A stretch of DNA of 37,393 nucleotides from an uncultured Treponema sp. (GTDB lineage: Bacteria; Spirochaetota; Spirochaetia; Treponematales; Treponemataceae): contig CAMVSS010000007.1 of the NCBI GenBank assembly GCA_947170195.1, positions 1 to 37,393 of the forward strand, given 5' to 3'. The notes beneath the pieces are model-generated. The model made no database searches and was not told where the DNA came from. It saw only the letters and a program-made list of their open reading frames with translations. Both the position numbers and the translations under genes were made by a program. Every line of letters begins with the position of its first letter. Position 1 is the stretch's first letter. Shown one piece after another: positions 1,226-26,603 of this stretch.

Positions 1226-1345
1226 CGAGCAAAAAAGCCCGCCCTGATTTTTATTCAACAAGTGCCCGTATCATACTTCATAAAAATCTAAAAACTTGGC
1301 TCTATATTTTTTTGATTTTTGACAATTTCAGTGTTACAATCAGCG

Positions 1346-2719
1346 ATGATGAGAGAAACTGATAAAAAATTCTTCATGAGGAATATTGAGGAAATAAACA
1401 CTGCAATTTTTCATATTCTTTCATATTCAAATATTATTCCCGTCACGACTTTTGTTTTATCAGCTTTCGGAATCTTCAACGTAACCATTCTGTCATCAGC
1501 AAAACTGATTCTTGTCACTTCCATTCTAACTCTGATCGATTTTTTAATCCTGCGCGTAAAGAAAAACGATGTTCTCACAATGTATACAGGTCTTTTTTCC
1601 ACAGAAATCGTCATAGCCTATGCGGGAACGAATGCATTTATCGGAATTTATCTCGGATTCGCATTTGTTCCGTTTCTGGCGAGCTTTTACTATGACAAAA
1701 AGCTGACTATCCAGATTTCCGTAATCAGCTACATCGCAATGCTCCTCTCTCTTTATTTTAAGTATTGCAATCACGCTGAGATTTTTGCCGGAATTAACGT
1801 CGAAGAAAGAACTTTTACAAGCACATACATTCCGATCGCGCTCGGTTTTACGTTCGAATTCATTTTCACCATACTGATTTCATACAAAAATACAACTCGA
1901 ATGCTGAATGTCATTACCGGTTTTATGAATTCAGTGGCAGAAAAGACAAATCTCCTTAAAAACATTCAGGATGCGAACAAGAAAGTTGAATTCAAGAATC
2001 TCGAAATGGAGATAACTCAGTTCAACATAATTCAGTTCGTCGCCGAATGTTTGGGAAGCCACGATCTGTTCACAGGCCGCCACGTCCTGCACACAAAAGA
2101 ATACGTCGTCCTGATTGCAAAGCACATGCAGCAGACGGGAAAATATATTGATATCCTCGATGACAAGACGATAGCCATGTATTCGTCAGCAGCTTTTCTG
2201 CATGATATCGGAAAGCTCCACATTCCTGAGGGAATCCTTAATAAGGTAGGAAAATTCACCGACGACGAATTTGAATTGATGAAGAGCCATCCGGAAGAAG
2301 GCAAAAAGCTTCTGGAATTTCTGCCAAAGATTTCCGACGGAAGATTCAACGAAATCGCAATTCAGATGGCTTACTGCCACCACGAAAAATGGAACGGCTC
2401 GGGATATCCGCGCGGAATCTCAGGGGAAGAAATACCTCTTTGCGCAAGAATAATGTCAGCGGCAGATGTTTTGGACGCCCTAATCAGCCAGCGTCTTTAC
2501 AAGGATCCTATGACGGTCGAAGAAGCGATGAAGGTCTTCGAGAATTCGAAAGGCACTCACTTCGAGCCTTGCATCGCGGAAGCGGTCATCGAATGCAAGA
2601 AAAAAATCAAAAAAATTGATTCGGCTTTCAAGCAGCAGGAGAATGCCGGATACAGCGAAGAACTTGCCTGGTGGTATCGCTACCATAAAATCGACCGAAC
2701 CGAAAACAAAAATCAGTAA
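1346..2719 (+). CDS. membrane HD-GYP domain protein, probable c-di-GMP phosphodiesterase
   Basis: The protein probably degrades cyclic di-GMP. Roughly the first 190 residues are hydrophobic with about five or six membrane segments, like a membrane-embedded sensor. A short coiled stretch (about 195-225) leads to a complete HD-GYP domain: FLHDIGKLHIPEGIL with His286-Asp287, then the HPEEG motif, the HHEKWNGSGYPRG motif near residue 345, and the IMSAADVLDAL helix. All metal-binding signature residues are present, so activity is expected. An in-frame TTG at 1319 would add nine residues, but it has no ribosome binding site. The ATG pair at 1346/1349 is preferred, although no strong Shine-Dalgarno is visible there either. 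The gene diverges from gpmI and converges on the MATE gene. A PilZ gene elsewhere in the window (20230-20601) suggests active c-di-GMP signalling in this organism. Confidence 0.85.
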   Translation: MMRETDKKFFMRNIEEINTAIFHILSYSNIIPVTTFVLSAFGIFNVTILSSAKLILVTSILTLIDFLILRVKKNDVLTMYTGLFSTEIVIAYAGTNAFIGIYLGFAFVPFLASFYYDKKLTIQISVISYIAMLLSLYFKYCNHAEIFAGINVEERTFTSTYIPIALGFTFEFIFTILISYKNTTRMLNVITGFMNSVAEKTNLLKNIQDANKKVEFKNLEMEITQFNIIQFVAECLGSHDLFTGRHVLHTKEYVVLIAKHMQQTGKYIDILDDKTIAMYSSAAFLHDIGKLHIPEGILNKVGKFTDDEFELMKSHPEEGKKLLEFLPKISDGRFNEIAIQMAYCHHEKWNGSGYPRGISGEEIPLCARIMSAADVLDALISQRLYKDPMTVEEAMKVFENSKGTHFEPCIAEAVIECKKKIKKIDSAFKQQENAGYSEELAWWYRYHKIDRTENKNQ

Positions 2720-10244: not shown

Positions 10245-11639
10245 TTATTCAACAATTTTGTAATCCGCATTCAGACAATTCATGACATCATAAAAATGAG
10301 GGAAGCTGACCGAGCAGCACTCCGCGTCTTTTACAATCACGCGCTCTCCGTCTGGAAGTCCGAGTCCCAGAACAGCAAGCGACATCGCCATGCGGTGGTC
10401 GTCATAGCTTTCAACGTATCCGCCATGAAGTTTAAAATCCGGATTTTTTGAACCGTCGCTCAAAACAGGAGAGTGACCGAAAATCTTAAGGAAATCTTCG
10501 CCCTCCTCTATGTCTGCCCCGAGCTTTTTCAGTTCGCTTGTAACGACTTTCAACCTGTCGGTTTCTTTTCGCCTGCAAACTGCGGCATCCTCAATGACTA
10601 CGGTTCCCTCGGTAAAGCAAGCGGCAACCGCAAGGGCGCAGATTGCGTCCGGGAAGCCAGAAATCTTTACGTGAAGCTCGCCGCCAGGAAGGTTCTCTGT
10701 TGAAAGTCGTCCTATTCCGTCCCGAGTCTTTTTGCCACCTCGGACGGTGATTGTCTCATTCTCTTTGTTCCAGTCAATTTCGGCACCAATGGACTTGAGG
10801 ATTTCAACGATTGCGTCGTCGCCCTGAGTTCCGCTTCCGTCGATGTTCTTTATTACGACCTCGCTGTCAGAAATTATGCCGGCAACAAGCGGGAAAGCAA
10901 CAGCCTCCCAGTCGCTAGGAATAGTCACATCGAAAGCTTTTATCGGGACGGGACCTTTTACCTGAATATGCTTAAAGTCGTCGGAAATTGTGACCGGAAC
11001 CCCGGCTTTTTCGAGCCATTTTTGCGTCATTGTCAGATAAGGGGTTTCCTTTGGATTTGAAAGCTCGATATTGAGAGTTCCGTCAAGAAGGATTCCTGCT
11101 ATCATCAGCCCGGAGATGTACTGGCTGGAGATTTCTCCGCTCGTGCGTACCGTTCCCGGCTTTATTTTGCCACGCACGATCAGCGGACAACCGTTCACGC
11201 CTGGCCGAGTCGTGTAACTTTCAGCCCCGAGCTGAACAAGCGCGTCAGCAACATGATTTACAGGGCGTTTCTTTATGCTTGCATCGCCGGTGATTACAGA
11301 CGTTCCTTCGAAATTCGCGACAATCGCAGAGATAAAGTAAAGGAGAGTTCCTGAATTTCCGACATCGACGATATCACTTGGAAGATGAATATTTTTGCCA
11401 GCTCCATGAACAATCCATTCAGAACCTGGGACGCCTTCTGTCAGGCCGAGGTCTATCTCAGCTCCGATCAGAGGAACCGCGGCGGCAGTTGAAAGACAAT
11501 CCGCGCTGGGAAGTGGATTCTTGATGCGCGAAACTCCGTCCGCCATGGTTGCGAGAATTAGCGCACGGATTGTGTGAGATTTTGAGCCGGGAACAACGAT
11601 TTCCCCGGAAAGTGATTTTTTAGATGCCGAAATATTCAT
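10245..11639 (-). CDS. aroA: 3-phosphoshikimate 1-carboxyvinyltransferase (EPSP synthase)
   Basis: This cytoplasmic enzyme transfers enolpyruvyl from PEP to shikimate-3-phosphate, the sixth step of the shikimate pathway to chorismate. The N-terminal VPGSKSHTIRALILA matches the conserved substrate loop. VDVGNSGTLLYF, RPVNHVADAL, SSQYISGLMIAG and YDDHRMAMSLAVLGL are the family signatures in order. The 464 residues are slightly longer than the usual 430-450. No Shine-Dalgarno is visible; a TAAAAT lies six bases before the ATG and may be a -10 box for a leaderless mRNA. It diverges from the (p)ppGpp synthetase gene. In the ThrHis-containing KSHT, most bacterial enzymes have KS(I/L)(T/S)(N/H)R, so this belongs to the more divergent class. 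No other shikimate gene is adjacent. Confidence 0.93.
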   Translation of the reverse strand: MNISASKKSLSGEIVVPGSKSHTIRALILATMADGVSRIKNPLPSADCLSTAAAVPLIGAEIDLGLTEGVPGSEWIVHGAGKNIHLPSDIVDVGNSGTLLYFISAIVANFEGTSVITGDASIKKRPVNHVADALVQLGAESYTTRPGVNGCPLIVRGKIKPGTVRTSGEISSQYISGLMIAGILLDGTLNIELSNPKETPYLTMTQKWLEKAGVPVTISDDFKHIQVKGPVPIKAFDVTIPSDWEAVAFPLVAGIISDSEVVIKNIDGSGTQGDDAIVEILKSIGAEIDWNKENETITVRGGKKTRDGIGRLSTENLPGGELHVKISGFPDAICALAVAACFTEGTVVIEDAAVCRRKETDRLKVVTSELKKLGADIEEGEDFLKIFGHSPVLSDGSKNPDFKLHGGYVESYDDHRMAMSLAVLGLGLPDGERVIVKDAECCSVSFPHFYDVMNCLNADYKIVE

Positions 11640-11689
11640 GTCGAGATTTTATCAGAAAAATCATACATATGGAAACATAAAATCATTAA

Positions 11690-11706
11690 AAGCGAGTTTT
11701 TCGATG
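11690..11706 (+). repeat. R2 half copy upstream of the rel gene
   Basis: AAGCGAGTTTTTCGATG here is identical over 17 bases to 28211-28227, which is the right arm of the full R2 repeat at 28189-28232. No left arm is visible here. Confidence 0.5.
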
Positions 11707-11763
11707 CGCGCTATGTGCTTTTCTGATGTTTTTTTGTTATATTTATATAAGGAGAAAATGCGC

Positions 11764-13596
11764 ATGGACTTTGACATTCTTACGAACAATACAGTTTTAG
11801 ATCCAGACGAGCTTGAGAGGGAATTCTTCAGGACTTTCCCCCGCTTTTCCGACGAAGAAAAATCATCTTTTTCATCGGCATGGAAATTCCTTGTCGAAAA
11901 AACCGGAACTCTCTCAAGGAGCTGCGGAACACCTTACATTCTCCACCCGCTGCGTGTCGCTGCCCTTCTTGCGGACAAAAACATGGACATGGAATGCGTC
12001 ATCTGCGGTCTTCTCCACTCAATTTTCGAAATCGAAGGAATCTCTCAGGAAGAAGTTGAGCAGAAATTCGGTCCGACAATAACAAAAATCGTCTACGACA
12101 CCTCAAAAATCACCGGAATGAAGATAAATGCCTCGACAATCCAGCAGGCTGACAATATCCGAAAAATGCTTTTCGCAATGGTTGATGACGTCAGGGTAAT
12201 TCTTGTAAAGCTCGCTGACAGGCTCGACCGCATGCGCAACCTCAAATCAATCGAAGAGAAAAAACAACGGCTCATCTCTGCCGAAGTGCTGGACATCTGG
12301 GCACCGCTCGCTGACAGGCTTGGTATGCAGAACGTAAAGAATGAGCTTGAGGATTTAAGCCTCAAATACTCAAACCCGAACGTTTTCCAGCAGATTAAAG
12401 CTATCGTTGCACAAAAAAAAGATGACAGGGCCTCATACCTGCAAAATGCAGTTTCTTCCATACAAAAGGCGGCGGAAAAGGCAGGGATCAAAGTTTCGAT
12501 TTCAAGCAGGGCAAAGCATTTCTTCTCAATCTACAAAAAAATGCAGAAAAGGAACGTCGAGGCAAGCCAGCTTTATGACCTTCTCGCACTGAGAATAATC
12601 TGCAACACGAACTCGGAATGCTACGCGCTGGTCGGAATCGTTCACGGGCTGTGGAAACCGATGGACGGAAGGTTCAAGGACTACATCGCGATGCCGAAAG
12701 CAAACGGTTATCAGTCGCTCCACACGACAGTCGTATGCGAGGGAAAGCCTCTCGAAATTCAGATAAGAACGCAAAAAATGCACGACATGGCGGAGCACGG
12801 TGTCGCATCGCACTGGCTCTACAAAAAGGGCATGAACCACGACAAGGTTGACGTGAACTCGCTCGAAATATTCAACCAGCTCCAAAAACTCAAGAAGCAG
12901 GATTTGAGCGACGAGAACTTTTTCAGCCGCCTAAAAAACGAGCTTCTGGGGGACGAAATCTACGTATTTACGCCGAAAGGAGACGTAATCCACCTTCCGC
13001 TCGGCTCGAATGCGATCGACTTTGCCTACCACGTGCACAGCGCGGTCGGAGAAAAAATTGTCGGTGCAAAAGCGGACGGAAAGATCATCCCGATTACAAC
13101 TCCGCTTAAAAACACTCAGATTATCGAAATCATAACGAATCCTCAGTCACACCCGACGGAAGCCCAGCTCAAGGTCGCAAAGACTACTAAAGCCCGCCAG
13201 AAAATCCACTCATGGCTGACAGCAAACGACCCGAACTTTGTTGACAAAGCGGCAGAAGCCCAAAGAGCGGCCGACCTTGCCATGCAGAACGACAAAAGCC
13301 GTGCTATTCAGGAAGAAAAGCGCAAGAAAAGAGCATCAAAGAAGGGTGCCGGCGAGATAAAAAATTCAGCGGAAAACCTGACTGGAAAAGTAATTGCGGA
13401 CGGAACAAAAAACATGATCTGCACTTTTGCCGGATGCTGCTCCCCACAGCCCGGAGATCTGATCGTAGGCTATGTCAGCAAGCGTAAGGGCATAATGATT
13501 CACAAGGCAACATGCCTTACCTTCCAGCGAATCTCAAACATAGAAAACCGAATGGTCAATGTCCAGTGGGAAGAGAAAAAAATCAAAGAAAAATAA
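11764..13596 (+). CDS. relA: RelA/SpoT-type (p)ppGpp synthetase with degenerate hydrolase and no ACT domain
   Basis: This is the stringent-response enzyme making (p)ppGpp from ATP and GDP/GTP. The HD-type hydrolase domain (about 45-190) keeps His61, His85, Glu89 and Asp152. However, the HDxxED motif reads HSIFEI, giving Ser86 for Asp and Ile90 for Asp, and LADRLHNMR reads LADRLDRMR. Hydrolysis is therefore probably lost. The synthetase domain looks intact: GRFKDYIAMPKANGYQSLHT with RFKD at 303-306, and EIQIRT with Glu331. The TGS domain starts near 398. A Cys cluster (Cys553, 558, 559 and a later HKATC) forms the conserved-cysteine domain. The protein ends about 610 aa, without the usual ACT domain of 730-750-aa homologues. 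AAGGAG precedes ATG 11758 by 3 nt and ATG 11764 by 9 nt; the latter fits better. A much longer in-frame start at 11638 is rejected. Confidence 0.93.
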   Translation: MDFDILTNNTVLDPDELEREFFRTFPRFSDEEKSSFSSAWKFLVEKTGTLSRSCGTPYILHPLRVAALLADKNMDMECVICGLLHSIFEIEGISQEEVEQKFGPTITKIVYDTSKITGMKINASTIQQADNIRKMLFAMVDDVRVILVKLADRLDRMRNLKSIEEKKQRLISAEVLDIWAPLADRLGMQNVKNELEDLSLKYSNPNVFQQIKAIVAQKKDDRASYLQNAVSSIQKAAEKAGIKVSISSRAKHFFSIYKKMQKRNVEASQLYDLLALRIICNTNSECYALVGIVHGLWKPMDGRFKDYIAMPKANGYQSLHTTVVCEGKPLEIQIRTQKMHDMAEHGVASHWLYKKGMNHDKVDVNSLEIFNQLQKLKKQDLSDENFFSRLKNELLGDEIYVFTPKGDVIHLPLGSNAIDFAYHVHSAVGEKIVGAKADGKIIPITTPLKNTQIIEIITNPQSHPTEAQLKVAKTTKARQKIHSWLTANDPNFVDKAAEAQRAADLAMQNDKSRAIQEEKRKKRASKKGAGEIKNSAENLTGKVIADGTKNMICTFAGCCSPQPGDLIVGYVSKRKGIMIHKATCLTFQRISNIENRMVNVQWEEKKIKEK

Positions 13597-20696: not shown

Positions 20697-23600
20697 CTAG
20701 TTCTTTACGACCATGACTTTTCTCGTCTCGTCGATCTCCGGGCCTACCACGCGGACAAAGTACATTCCTCTGGCAACCGATTTTCCCTTGTTGTTAGTTC
20801 CGTTCCACTGATAGTAGTGCGTTCCCGCGCTGACCCGCCCCTTTGAGAGACGCTTTACGATGTTTCCGTCCAATGTCATCACGTACACGTTCAGGGTTCC
20901 TTCCTTCGGCATGACGACCTCAACGACAGTCTGCTCCTTTACGTTGGAATCAATGACGTTGTTGAGTATGGTGACTCCGCCACGCTGCTGAACTATGTCG
21001 CGAGTCACGAACGACCAGAGATCTGCAAACGAATAATCACCCGCGCCCATGTTCGTTGACGGCATCCAGAGCGCATAGAGCGGGATTCTGTCTGTCGTGG
21101 AGTCTCCGTCGTGGTTTATGGTTATGTAGCCGTTTGAGTCGAGCACAAATCCGCCGGTATTTGCAGAATCACTCTTGAGCGCGAACAGGAACTGATATTC
21201 CTTCTTGTTTCCGAAATGGAACACCGAGTTCGGCATGGTAAAATTCTTGAGCAGAGCAGAACCAGTGACCGCAGATATGTCCGATATGATGCTGAGGGAA
21301 TTCGTATTGTAAGATGTTGAGAGCGAGTCGAGCTTTGAAGGAAGCCAGATTCGCCATGAGAGTCCTGTATGTTTGTTGAACTTGTCGCTTATCCAAGACG
21401 GATTGAGATTGTCCTTGCAGTCAGGGATGACGACAAAAGTCTCACCGTTCTGAGGCGCAAAGTAGCCAGAAGAGTCCGTGCCGCCGACAAACTGAACCTG
21501 GAAGACGATATCGTTTCCGGTTTTCAGAGTTCCTGATTTTCCTGCATCGGCATAAAAATCGTGCACTGAATAACCGTCCGTTTCGGTCGCAGATTTTGTT
21601 CCATAAATTGATTTTTCATTCCAGCCGTCATCGTTAGTCGAGTTAGCATACGCATAAAGGACGTTCACAGCGTTCAGTGCGAAATCACTTATGGCATGGC
21701 AAGCATGGAGCGATATGCTGTTACGGAATTTATCCTGAATCGGAGAGGCATTTTCCGTACCAAAAATATTCGTTACGCTCTCAAGGCCGTCAGAATTGCT
21801 GACCCTGAGCCATGTCGTCTCAATATCCGAAAGCGTTATGTTTCTGTTCAACGTCAAAAGCAGCGCCGTGTATTTTTCCGAGTGAGGACTTGCAAGCGAA
21901 ACCGATTCCACGTAAAGATCAGAGCACACATCGGTTGTATCCTTGTCATCAGAATCAGAAAGAACAAATTCAAGATTTGATTTTATCAGATTCATTACCG
22001 AAGCAAGCTCTGATTCACCGAGATGATTCAGGATAACTCCGCCATGACCAAGAGGTTTCGTAAAGACCATATAAAGTTTGTTCTGAGCTATCGGCGCAAG
22101 GCTCAGCGAGAAAGACGGAGGAGTCACATCAACCGTGTGGAGTTTTTTGACCGATGAGCCTGAATCAACTTCAATCAGTCTGTTTCCGGCGAGATCGGTT
22201 ATATACGAAAGTGACGGGTCATAGGTGACGACAAAAGTTGTCCTCAACGGAAGCGATCCGGAATCCGCCGAATTCAGCGCGAGGTTCAGATAAAGGCCGT
22301 CGTTCTTAGTATTTACAGCAGTTGCGCTGGCTTTCTGAAAGAGTCCGCTTTTTACGTTCTGAGAGATTGAAGGACCGGTGAAAGAGCGCGGAGAAGATTC
22401 AGAAGAATCGAGGCTGTATACATATGTGAATGCAGATATCGCGTCATCAAGACTTGAGCGTCTTATTCCGCCGGAAGTTTTTTCCGCTCCGGTCACGAAA
22501 GGCCTGGCTCCGCCGGCGTTCTCAGGAATATCAAATCCAGAAAGAAGCACTCCGCCTGAACTCCAACCGTTCATAGTTACCCATTTGTAAGAATCTGTCA
22601 GGGAGTAAGCAGGAGTATTGTCAAAAAGATGAAGCTCGACGTTGGCAATCGTCGTTCCCGTGTTAGTAGCGGCCGCACCGATAACTTCATATTGTCGCTC
22701 CGAGCTTGACACGACAGAAGTCCAGTCCCAGCCTGTATCTTCCGTGCCCAAATCGCTGACATAAACGGCAAAGACAGGGTTAGAGCTGTCCCAAGCCCCG
22801 TACAGCCCGGAACTGCTTGTATTGACGGTGCGTGAAAGTGCATGATTTCCGGTCATCGCAGTATCGAGAGTGTTGTTAAGCGAATTACCGTCAGCATCGA
22901 CCGCCAAATCCGTAATCGAATCATTTGCGATGCACGTTATCGCTCCGGACGGTGCAGAAGAATGATTTATGTAGCCGATCCATTTATGAAATGAGCTTGA
23001 ATCATACGATATAGAGCCATCAACATAGCCTGCAACCGAAAGCCTCAGGCGCGAAATCTGATTTGTGTCTGAGGTACCGACAGTCAGAGAAAAATTCCTG
23101 TACAGAGAATGAGGAGATCCGCCTGCACGAGAAAAAGCATCCACATTTCCCGAAGCAAAAGTTGCAAGCCCCGCAACAGTGAACCCTGACGCGTTGTTTG
23201 TTATTTCCCCGAGAGATGATGTTGCCCGCACGTTCTGATCGCCGCCGTCATACAAAAGCGAGCCGATGTTTACCGGTTCAGAATATCTGAATTCGATAAA
23301 ATTGTGGGCATCGTAATATTTCTGGCTGTCCGCAGTTCCGCTGTTTTCGGAATGTAATTCCTGCCCGATGTAAACTCCCGTAAGTACAGGATGACATTTG
23401 TCATAGGTTGATGTGAAAGAAGATTCACTTCCTGTGCCATAGTTTTTTCCCATCGTGTGACCGTATTTTGCAGAAAAAACTCCGACCATCATCGAAAGAT
23501 CCGTCGTGACAGACTGATGATTTCCTTTTCGATCCGTAGAAACTTCATTTCCAGTCTCAGATGCCGTGGCATCCGTGTTCCAAGTCCGGGACGAATCCGA

Positions 23601-26600
23601 AATCTTCAGGTAAAGCTCCATGACGCCGGAAGCAGGAAGCGAAGTCGAGCAATCAGCATCAGCATAGGCACTGCCGAACGGATATGAAGAAGTTCCGTAC
23701 CAGACACCGCCCGACGAAAGCGACGCGATGTTTTCCAGAGTGCGGTTTATCTCGTTGTGTGAATTTTCTACCGGCATCGTGAATTTTACATAAATCACGT
23801 CATCAAAAACCGAGTAAGCCTCTGAGATTTCCGGGAACAAGAACTGAAAGCCAGTCCGCGAGCTTGGAGAACCGTCAGTTCCGACAGTCACAGAAGTATT
23901 TCCGCCTCCGTCAGTCACGTTCTGATTTCCAGAGCCTTTTGCCGCCGAAATATATGCGTATCCGCCCGAAGTCGCGCATGCGACGGTAACGTTCGAAACA
24001 GTGCAGTTAAAAACAGCCGCATAAACTGATTCGCCGCCCCATTGAGTATAGTTTCCGTTTCCAGCTACAGCCCCGCTTGCCGCCGTCTCAGTTCCGTTGA
24101 ATCTGACGGCAGAATCAGCGTTTGCAGGAAGAGTTACGGTCAGGGAAGTCGCGTTCAGATCGGCACCATTCACGTAGAATTTTCCTCCGACCGCGAATTC
24201 TGCGCCGGAAAGCCCGGTAAAACTTGCAGAAGGGGAAGATACGGTTACGGAATCAGCACCGGCAAGAGCAAATCGAGTGTTCGCAGACTGATAGCGCGGA
24301 TCCGTGGCATTGTAATTTGATCCCCAGACAGCAAAAGTCTTTCCGGAAGTGATTTTTCCGCCATTAACATTCAGACCGCCACGAATAAAATAGAAATTCT
24401 CGCTGACTGAAAGATTCGAGCTGAGAGTATATGTTGATCCGCTGTGCAAAAGTGTCAGATTTCCGACGACCGAAATCGGAGAAGAAGATCCGCTGCTCAA
24501 TGCAAAATTTCCGGTCGAAGTGCCTGCTGATGTCGTCACATTGCCGGTATATGTCTGCACCCCGGACGTCGCATAATCAGCCGGATTGAGCGTTATCGAG
24601 CTTGCAGTCGCGCTAAAATTACCTGTGGAAGAAAGTCCCTCAAACGAGATTGTTCCAGTCAGAGCGGATACAGTGCAGTTCGAAGAGCACGAAACCTGCG
24701 CGCCGAACGTTATGTCCCCTCCGGTTGAAGTAATCTGCGGAGCTGCTACCGTTATTGTTCCGCCCGAAAGCGTATAAACCTGATTTCCGCTCGTCGTGAC
24801 AATTCCTCCGAGGGAAATTCCCGCAGCAGAAGTAAAAGTCAGTTCCGTGCCGCTCACCGTGCCGCCGAACGTCATGGTGGAAATGGTGGAAGAAGAATCT
24901 ATATCGGTGACAGAAGAACCAAAGGCAACGTTCCCCGAAATGTCGAGGGAATTTACATTTCCCGTGCAGTTAATTTCTGAGGAAAGAGTCGAGACAAAAT
25001 TACCGAAGCGCGAAGCTGATGCGCCGATTCCTGCCGCAGAAAGATTGCCCGAGCCGCTCATGGTAAGGGTTCCGCTTCCTGAAATCGTTCCAGTCTCAAG
25101 GGATGCCGCAGCCGCAAGGTTCACGCCCACATCATGATCGACAGTCAAAATTGAAATCTGCTCCGCGCCCGAAAAAGAAACGGCTGAATCGGAAGAAAAA
25201 TCAACTTCATAAAATTTGTGGCCGCCGCTGACAGAAGAAGAAGCTCCGGCAAACGTGACTTTGCCGCCCGTAGCAGAAATTCCGCCTGAGGAAGATGCGG
25301 TTATATCTCCGGAAAGGGCAAGATTTCCTGAAGTCTGGCGATATTTTCCTGAGTCAGAAAAATTTAAATTTTCAGCAACCGTCACCGTGCCACCATTCTG
25401 AACGAATTCGCCGGTTCCATTGAGAGAAAAGCTTCCAGAGACGGCAAAAGTTCCATCGCTAACAGAAGCAGATGATGTTCCGCTCATACCAAAAGCATCT
25501 GCGACAGAGATCGAGCCGCCGCCCAGCGAAAGTGCGCCGGTTCCGGACATAGAAAAATCATCCGAAACGGAAAGCGTTCCTGCTGTCACGGAAAGAGTTC
25601 CGCCCGACAAAGATACAGTTCCGCTCGTCAAAGAGCCGCCGTCCACGGAAAGAGTTCCGGCTGACATCGACACGGTTCCGCTCTCCAAAGAACCGCCTGA
25701 TATCGTAAGAGTTCCGCCAGTTATGGAGATGCCGGCCACGGAATCAGTTGGAGAAGTTGTGGATGTCACCTCTGGATAATATTCCAGCGAGCCTGGAATT
25801 AGCACTATGCTGGTTGTAGTCGGAACTGCGCTGCCAGACCAGTTAGCCGTATCAGTCCAATCGGAAGAAGATGCCCCACCGGTCCAAGTAAATCCAAAAA
25901 GCTGTTCCGCAATGCTGTCTCCGCTCGGCAAAGAAATTTTGCCTTGAAAATCACTGAAAGAATCCGTCTGAAGCGTGTAATAAGTCGTAGTCCCAGTGTG
26001 CAAGTTGCCCGACACAGTGAAAGAGCTGGATGAATCTCCAGAAATATAAAATCGAGTATCTGCGGCTGATGAGTTGGCCCAGAGCGTATTTGTTACGTCA
26101 AGCGATGTATTTTCGAGCGTAAGCTTGCAGCTGAGCGCGGCATAAGAATCAAGCGTTCCGACCGTCACCGTGGCATTCGATATTTTCAGATTTCCTGACT
26201 GAGCAGGAGCCGCATCCTGTCCAACATTCATCGTGCCGACAACAAGAGCGGCACCATTCATATCGATCGAAACCAGCGTTGCGTCAGAGTCATTGTACCT
26301 GTTAAGAACGGTAAGCGTTCCGACAGAAATTGCAGATCCGGAAGTATTCGTCACGCTGACAGCATCTGTAGTACTCGTAAAGAACGCACTATCGGCGGAG
26401 CCTGGTATTCCAGACGTACCGGTTCCGTCTTGTGCAGTATTCCAGTTTGAAGAATCGCTCCAGTCACCGCTCGTTCCGCCGACCCAATAATAGGTTGCAG
26501 AAAACGCGCTGAATGGCAGCATAAAAACAAGAAGAGCCGCAGCAATAAAGCTCCGGCTTATATGTGAGAAAATATTCTTTATCGGACAAAAAGAAAAAAT

Positions 26601-26603
26601 CAT
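20697..26603 (-). CDS. giant secreted beta-helix-like protein with C-terminal FlgD-like Ig domain
   Basis: This is a 1968-residue surface or secreted protein of unknown role. Residues 1-35 form a signal peptide ending in AFS, with mature ATYYWVGGTS. Two modules of the type WxGGxSxxWxDxxNW occur at about 40-56 and 240-256. A long Ser/Thr/Gly-rich zone (about 285-900) has repeats such as GGSLTSGTVSLSGGTLSVT, typical of parallel beta-helix folds. The middle (about 1000-1880) has Ig-like pieces, for example VTPPSFSLSLAPIAQNKLY. The last 80 residues are a FlgD-like Ig domain: LNVYVMTLDGNIVKRL, YYQWNGTNNKGKSVARGMYF, ending VMVVKN. No membrane anchor or barrel is present. The start overlaps the upstream 103-aa gene stop (ATGA). 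Similar large proteins occur in treponemes. Binding or adhesion is plausible; no enzyme domain is seen. Confidence 0.85.
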   Translation of the reverse strand: MIFSFCPIKNIFSHISRSFIAAALLVFMLPFSAFSATYYWVGGTSGDWSDSSNWNTAQDGTGTSGIPGSADSAFFTSTTDAVSVTNTSGSAISVGTLTVLNRYNDSDATLVSIDMNGAALVVGTMNVGQDAAPAQSGNLKISNATVTVGTLDSYAALSCKLTLENTSLDVTNTLWANSSAADTRFYISGDSSSSFTVSGNLHTGTTTYYTLQTDSFSDFQGKISLPSGDSIAEQLFGFTWTGGASSSDWTDTANWSGSAVPTTTSIVLIPGSLEYYPEVTSTTSPTDSVAGISITGGTLTISGGSLESGTVSMSAGTLSVDGGSLTSGTVSLSGGTLSVTAGTLSVSDDFSMSGTGALSLGGGSISVADAFGMSGTSSASVSDGTFAVSGSFSLNGTGEFVQNGGTVTVAENLNFSDSGKYRQTSGNLALSGDITASSSGGISATGGKVTFAGASSSVSGGHKFYEVDFSSDSAVSFSGAEQISILTVDHDVGVNLAAAASLETGTISGSGTLTMSGSGNLSAAGIGASASRFGNFVSTLSSEINCTGNVNSLDISGNVAFGSSVTDIDSSSTISTMTFGGTVSGTELTFTSAAGISLGGIVTTSGNQVYTLSGGTITVAAPQITSTGGDITFGAQVSCSSNCTVSALTGTISFEGLSSTGNFSATASSITLNPADYATSGVQTYTGNVTTSAGTSTGNFALSSGSSSPISVVGNLTLLHSGSTYTLSSNLSVSENFYFIRGGLNVNGGKITSGKTFAVWGSNYNATDPRYQSANTRFALAGADSVTVSSPSASFTGLSGAEFAVGGKFYVNGADLNATSLTVTLPANADSAVRFNGTETAASGAVAGNGNYTQWGGESVYAAVFNCTVSNVTVACATSGGYAYISAAKGSGNQNVTDGGGNTSVTVGTDGSPSSRTGFQFLFPEISEAYSVFDDVIYVKFTMPVENSHNEINRTLENIASLSSGGVWYGTSSYPFGSAYADADCSTSLPASGVMELYLKISDSSRTWNTDATASETGNEVSTDRKGNHQSVTTDLSMMVGVFSAKYGHTMGKNYGTGSESSFTSTYDKCHPVLTGVYIGQELHSENSGTADSQKYYDAHNFIEFRYSEPVNIGSLLYDGGDQNVRATSSLGEITNNASGFTVAGLATFASGNVDAFSRAGGSPHSLYRNFSLTVGTSDTNQISRLRLSVAGYVDGSISYDSSSFHKWIGYINHSSAPSGAITCIANDSITDLAVDADGNSLNNTLDTAMTGNHALSRTVNTSSSGLYGAWDSSNPVFAVYVSDLGTEDTGWDWTSVVSSSERQYEVIGAAATNTGTTIANVELHLFDNTPAYSLTDSYKWVTMNGWSSGGVLLSGFDIPENAGGARPFVTGAEKTSGGIRRSSLDDAISAFTYVYSLDSSESSPRSFTGPSISQNVKSGLFQKASATAVNTKNDGLYLNLALNSADSGSLPLRTTFVVTYDPSLSYITDLAGNRLIEVDSGSSVKKLHTVDVTPPSFSLSLAPIAQNKLYMVFTKPLGHGGVILNHLGESELASVMNLIKSNLEFVLSDSDDKDTTDVCSDLYVESVSLASPHSEKYTALLLTLNRNITLSDIETTWLRVSNSDGLESVTNIFGTENASPIQDKFRNSISLHACHAISDFALNAVNVLYAYANSTNDDGWNEKSIYGTKSATETDGYSVHDFYADAGKSGTLKTGNDIVFQVQFVGGTDSSGYFAPQNGETFVVIPDCKDNLNPSWISDKFNKHTGLSWRIWLPSKLDSLSTSYNTNSLSIISDISAVTGSALLKNFTMPNSVFHFGNKKEYQFLFALKSDSANTGGFVLDSNGYITINHDGDSTTDRIPLYALWMPSTNMGAGDYSFADLWSFVTRDIVQQRGGVTILNNVIDSNVKEQTVVEVVMPKEGTLNVYVMTLDGNIVKRLSKGRVSAGTHYYQWNGTNNKGKSVARGMYFVRVVGPEIDETRKVMVVKN
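25560..25740 (-). repeat. tandem repeats within the giant protein gene
   Basis: Units of about 19 to 21 codons are repeated here, encoding GGSLESGTVSMSAGTLSVD and then GGSLTSGTVSLSGGTLSVT, with shorter degenerate units on both sides. The bases AGAGTTCCG and similar recur in each unit. Such repeats favour length variation between strains. Confidence 0.7.

Follow-up and report, generated by a model that had tools for sequence, protein, structure and literature searches.

Long RSH enzymes outside the beta- and gamma-proteobacteria are generally taken as bifunctional, both making and degrading (p)ppGpp. The window analyzed here, a stretch of 37,393 nucleotides from an uncultured Treponema sp., carries a long RSH (Rel) gene whose two hydrolase motifs had been read as broken in the initial annotation. 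This raises the question of whether the enzyme can still degrade the alarmone and, if it does not, which other protein would do so.

The Rel gene and its hydrolase site

The gene lies in an open frame spanning 11638–13596 on the forward strand (Table 1). Alignments to homologues begin at residues 1–13 of the protein as read from 11764, which supports a length of 610 residues. Pfam recognizes HD_4, RelA_SpoT and TGS domains, in that order, and no ACT domain. The protein scores 581.5 bits against the NCBIfam model TIGR00691 (spoT_relA; cut-off 499.2) and is best aligned to B. subtilis Rel (6yxa, E 9e-126). Its cysteine pair is found at residues 558–559, followed by about 52 residues as compared with about 128 in class relatives having ACT, and the C-terminus lies 26 residues past the last cysteine of the zinc finger. 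The early stop after the cysteine cluster at about 610 residues, the lack of ACT and the intact GRFKD motif and Glu331 of the synthetase, all noted in the initial annotation, were thus borne out. Its suggestion of trimmed regulation holds for the lost ACT domain and not for the TGS and zinc-finger (ZFD) residues contacting tRNA and ribosome, which are kept.

Table 1. Positions of the features discussed. Coordinates without a prefix are those of the window; the others carry their locus handle.
Feature	Coordinates	Strand	Remarks
Long RSH (Rel) gene	11764..13596	+	610 aa; likely start ATG 11764
HD_4 domain, putative pseudo-hydrolase	11878..12327	+	Fold kept according to the model
HSIFEI replacing HDxxED	12016..12033	+	D78 to S86, D82 to I90; H77 and E81 retained
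LADRLDRMR replacing LADRLHNMR	12211..12237	+	H147 to D155, N148 to R156
RelA_SpoT synthetase domain	12505..12831	+	Active-site residues intact
GRFKD, RxKD motif of the Rel/SpoT class	12667..12681	+	Residues 302–306
Catalytic Glu331 (EIQIRT)	12754..12756	+	Intact
TGS domain	12958..13137	+	His425 (B. subtilis H420, recognition of tRNA 3' end) retained
Zinc-finger (ZFD, CC) domain core	13435..13515	+	CC...H...C retained
HD_5 (HD-GYP-like) protein	1319-2719	+	Possible cyclic-di-GMP phosphodiesterase; HD not of the RSH type
1968-aa protein	20697-26603	-	Only a C-terminal FlgD Ig-like domain seen by Pfam; possibly a large surface protein
ActSpo2-type SAH	G000:C22:19247-19882		Directly downstream of valS
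SAS with TPR repeats	L003:1354-2604		
RelQ-like SAS	L002:1390-2106		

Residues of the hydrolase site are numbered as in RelSeq. Both HD motifs of Rel align without gaps to the solved Rel enzymes of B. subtilis, M. tuberculosis and S. aureus, which confirms the motif readings given in Table 1 and rules out that the ligands are merely offset or misaligned. The positions D78 (Ser86), D82 (Ile90), H147 (Asp155), N148 (Arg156) and T151 (Asn159) are changed; R44 (Arg52), E81 (Glu89) and the metal ligands H53, H77 and D144 (His61, His85 and Asp152) are kept. In RelSeq the metal is bound by H53, H77 and D144, D78 shifts toward it upon substrate binding, the D78A substitution abolishes hydrolysis, and N148 touches the base and the 3'-phosphate; the nucleotide contacts described for this enzyme, N148, K45, S46 and T151, are all substituted in the treponeme protein (PMC13299517). 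Catalysis by the known route of hydrolysis is thus predicted to be very unlikely. Since the three metal ligands survive, the domain may bind metal or nucleotide or have weak activity. That the altered domain still hydrolyzes (p)ppGpp, by means of the surviving His/His/Asp metal site and a substitute residue for D78, appears highly improbable: H53, H77 and D144 are retained in most copies of the family and E81 in the source protein, but the loss of D78 alone suffices to kill hydrolysis in RelSeq (PMC13299517). Also missing are D82 and N148, the residue that binds the base, and among relatives there is free variation at positions 78 and 82, unlike in a redesigned active site.

Distribution of the altered site and selection on the HD domain

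A set of 123 Rel sequences from Treponemataceae (family f1) was read along with an outgroup of 48 class members outside Treponematales, representing about 25 families. The hydrolase site is intact in none of the 123 and in 48 of 48 sequences of the outgroup. Within the family D78 is lost in 118 sequences and N148 in all 123; position 147 is Asp in 121 and position 148 Arg or Lys in 115, and the metal ligands H53, H77 and D144 are present in 120, 112 and 115 sequences, respectively. The HD change is therefore old and family-wide and not particular to the source genome; because not one of the family copies has an intact site, a one-off mutation or sequencing error is ruled out. In the other families of the order the site is altered in all Rel of f2 (n = 14) and f38 (n = 13), intact in the single f37 sequence and intact in 3 of 6 from f39. 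Tails long enough for ACT occur in f2, f37, f38 and f39, and not in f1. Across about 150 copies with an altered HD site the synthetase residues show little or no variation; where aligned, the TGS histidine is found in 151/151 and the CC of the ZFD in 146/146.

The HD domain has diverged faster than the synthetase in the lineages concerned. The ratio of HD to synthetase (SYNTH) distances is 1.95 in Treponemataceae as against 0.88 in class relatives with an intact site; it is 1.45 in f38, 1.18 in f2 and about 2 on the altered f39 branch, and the control ratio of TGS to SYNTH distances is 0.75 in both Treponemataceae and outgroup. Since the all-pairs version of dN/dS was saturated, near and independent pairs were used: 15 such pairs from Treponemataceae gave 0.071 for HD and 0.034 for SYNTH, and six pairs with an intact site gave 0.034 and 0.042, respectively. 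Constraint on the HD domain is relaxed about twofold and selection is still purifying, in agreement with a pseudo-enzyme that acts structurally or as a switch, as the inactive HD domain of E. coli RelA does (PMC8012599). A model of Rel built from 24 relatives (pLDDT 72.5, above 80 over most of the first 110 residues) matches the catalytic halves of Rel enzymes at Z 30–33 and SAHs, the small hydrolases, at Z 17–18.

These data bear on two further readings. Rel could be a relic on its way out, the work being done by small synthetases (SAS) as in T. denticola, and outright loss of Rel in the T. denticola group and several SAH-keeping f39 genera, together with a RelQ-like SAS and a TPR-repeat SAS in the genome, would agree with this; but the synthetase dN/dS of 0.034 over the 15 independent family pairs and the near absence of lost catalytic synthetase residues in about 150 copies make it extremely unlikely. 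The other reading, a variant of the preferred one, takes the pseudo-HD as a sensor that would bind (p)ppGpp or another nucleotide uncut and thereby set synthetase activity. It is consistent with the purifying selection that persists after loss of catalysis and with the near fixation of Asp147 and Arg/Lys148, but we regard it as unlikely, as the replacement of N148, K45, S46 and T151 makes nucleotide binding in the known mode unlikely.

The probable partner hydrolase and the likely order of events

A synthesis-only Rel, as proposed initially, calls for a separate hydrolase in the genome or for some other limit on alarmone levels, and a hydrolase was found. The assembly of the source genome, about 80% complete, contains one further RSH-type HD protein, a SAH of 212 residues with His52, HDCIED and ADRISN. 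It is a stand-alone HD protein of the ~200-residue class with HDxxED and ADRxxN intact, its nearest solved relative is 7p1y (E 9.5e-76), titled Td ActSpo2-type SAH, and its catalytic columns are invariant in 59/59 sequences. The T. denticola protein, Tde-SAH, is a Mn2+-dependent 3'-pyrophosphohydrolase that hydrolyzes (p)ppGpp, and its activity is abolished by D74A, the equivalent of RelSeq D78 (PMC10434055). The same ~80% complete assembly contains a single long RSH, with no SpoT paralogue found, and two further synthetases, a Tde-SAS/DsRel-like SAS with TPR repeats and a RelQ-like SAS.

SAH was detected in 181 of 195 Treponemataceae genomes, one of them matched weakly, and in almost every genome of four Treponematales families; the rest of the class gave weak matches only, mostly to the HD domain of Rel itself. 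SAH is thus particular to Treponematales. In 57 of 63 SAH loci the gene follows the valS match at a distance of 3–150 bases and in the same orientation, and this placement directly behind valS recurs across four families of the order (L005:151-2022, G000:C22); SAH and valyl-tRNA synthetase may be expressed together. No Rfam match was obtained around valS-SAH. One f2 genome encodes, besides the usual SAH, a second and more divergent SAH-like HD protein of 235 residues (G303:C9:20635-21144).

About 12 genomes with an altered HD site lack SAH even by profile search (the g3 subgroup, G131, G140 and others), and no other convincing HD_4 protein was found in the ten that were re-searched. In eleven of the 12 genomes tested valS is missing as well, and in the remaining one, G327, the valS gene extends up to the end of its contig. 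As valS is an essential gene, these cases are read mostly as assembly gaps, with real loss possible in some, and are not counted as counter-examples. Five related g3 genomes (G044, G051, G058, G072 and G083) miss both valS and SAH, which may point to a gap that recurs in assembly or to an unusual region. Only in two genomes is valS present without SAH: G020, a T. pallidum-like genome of 1.1 Mb in which no long Rel was found, and G288 of f37, where no SAH follows valS and the HD site of Rel is intact.

The order of events was addressed by a Rel tree built from the SYNTH and TGS columns with the HD domain left out. On this tree the HD state has to change three times, each time inside the SAH-bearing clade; holding f1, f2 and f38 together is favoured and leaves two losses, and a single loss in the whole order is not formally rejected (AU test, p 0.33). 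In f39, which retains intact copies, the altered copies nest among the intact ones. The losses are confined to 11.6% of the branch length available for the death of an intact site (three losses, P 0.0015; two losses, P 0.013; these values were computed after the pattern had been seen and are indicative only). The HD site decayed two to three times, only in SAH-carrying lineages. Three f39 genomes hold an intact Rel together with SAH, so SAH probably came first; the sequence was probably gain of SAH behind valS, decay of the HD site and then loss of ACT in Treponemataceae. Rel was probably lost altogether from the T. denticola group and from several f39 genera, and SAH was lost as well from the T. 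pallidum-like genome of 1.1 Mb. The f39 genomes in question (G290, G293, G307, G310, G322, G325 and G328) have no long Rel above the cut-off and keep SAH, an independent loss resembling that of T. denticola.

A probable division of synthesis and degradation

Taken together, we consider it very probable (about 0.88) that Rel is a ribosome-gated, synthesis-only long RSH with degradation outsourced to the valS-linked SAH. Rel would still read uncharged tRNA on the stalled ribosome through its TGS and ZFD, and its RxKD synthetase would then make (p)ppGpp. The HD domain, presumably unable to hydrolyze (p)ppGpp, would persist as a pseudo-domain whose structural or regulatory part is to hold or switch the synthetase, as in E. 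coli RelA, and SAH would degrade the product in trans, balancing both Rel and the genome's two small synthetases. The absence of hydrolysis by Rel, its gating by the ribosome and the role of SAH as main hydrolase in vivo are deduced from sequence, and the initial proposal of a Rel-class enzyme turned synthetase-only is supported at this level. B. subtilis Rel or E. coli RelA without ACT is toxic through misregulated activation on ribosomes (PMC7058999), so a natural Rel without ACT would need compensation, for which SAH is the obvious candidate counterweight. A more speculative extension would have Treponematales splitting the activities of Rel by gaining SAH behind valS and Treponemataceae rebuilding the pseudo-HD around Asp147 and a basic residue 148, which may take the place of the catalytic metal and keep the domain locked; loss of ACT would then give a Rel strongly activated by the ribosome, its output being restrained by SAH co-expressed with valS, tying alarmone removal to a tRNA-charging gene. 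As a whole this chain is conceivable but rather doubtful.

The protein is homologous over its full length, in sequence and fold, to bifunctional Rel[HS] (B. subtilis 6yxa, RelSeq 1vj7), sharing RxKD, TGS and ZFD, but it has lost the HD catalytic residues and ACT. It resembles RelA of beta/gamma-proteobacteria (RelA[hS]) in its maintained pseudo-hydrolase, predicted active synthetase, ribosome- and tRNA-reading domains and presumed degradation by another protein. Unlike RelA it has RxKD (GRFKD) rather than EXDD and no ACT, it is paired with a small hydrolase from a different RSH subfamily and not with the paralogue SpoT, and it arose separately, in spirochaetes; the treponeme Rel is thus predicted to work like RelA without being a member of that group. 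The Tde-SAS/Tde-SAH pair of T. denticola comprises the same SAH family (ActSpo2) and a similar TPR-repeat SAS (PMC10434055), but no long RSH exists there, whereas here SAH would also serve a synthesis-only long Rel. Some RshC proteins of Bacilli likewise have no ACT (Atkinson 2011, PMC3153485), although they belong to another lineage and the likeness concerns the absence of ACT. Spirochaete Rel have been listed as bifunctional, T. denticola apart (Atkinson 2011, PMC3153485), and long RSHs were noted in most other Treponema, with T. denticola contrasted as having no bifunctional one (PMC10434055). In the open papers searched, we found no report of an inactive HD domain in treponeme Rel or of a Rel/SAH split in Treponema.

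Throughout the family and in most of Treponematales, Rel thus appears to be synthesis-only and to be accompanied by a separate hydrolase, a split that parallels RelA/SpoT and was reached through gain of SAH instead of rel duplication. The treponeme Rel provides a second evolutionary test of why an inactive hydrolase domain is kept, and a natural long RSH without ACT that would be expected to be toxic from experience with B. subtilis. SAH is predicted to be conditionally essential in these bacteria.
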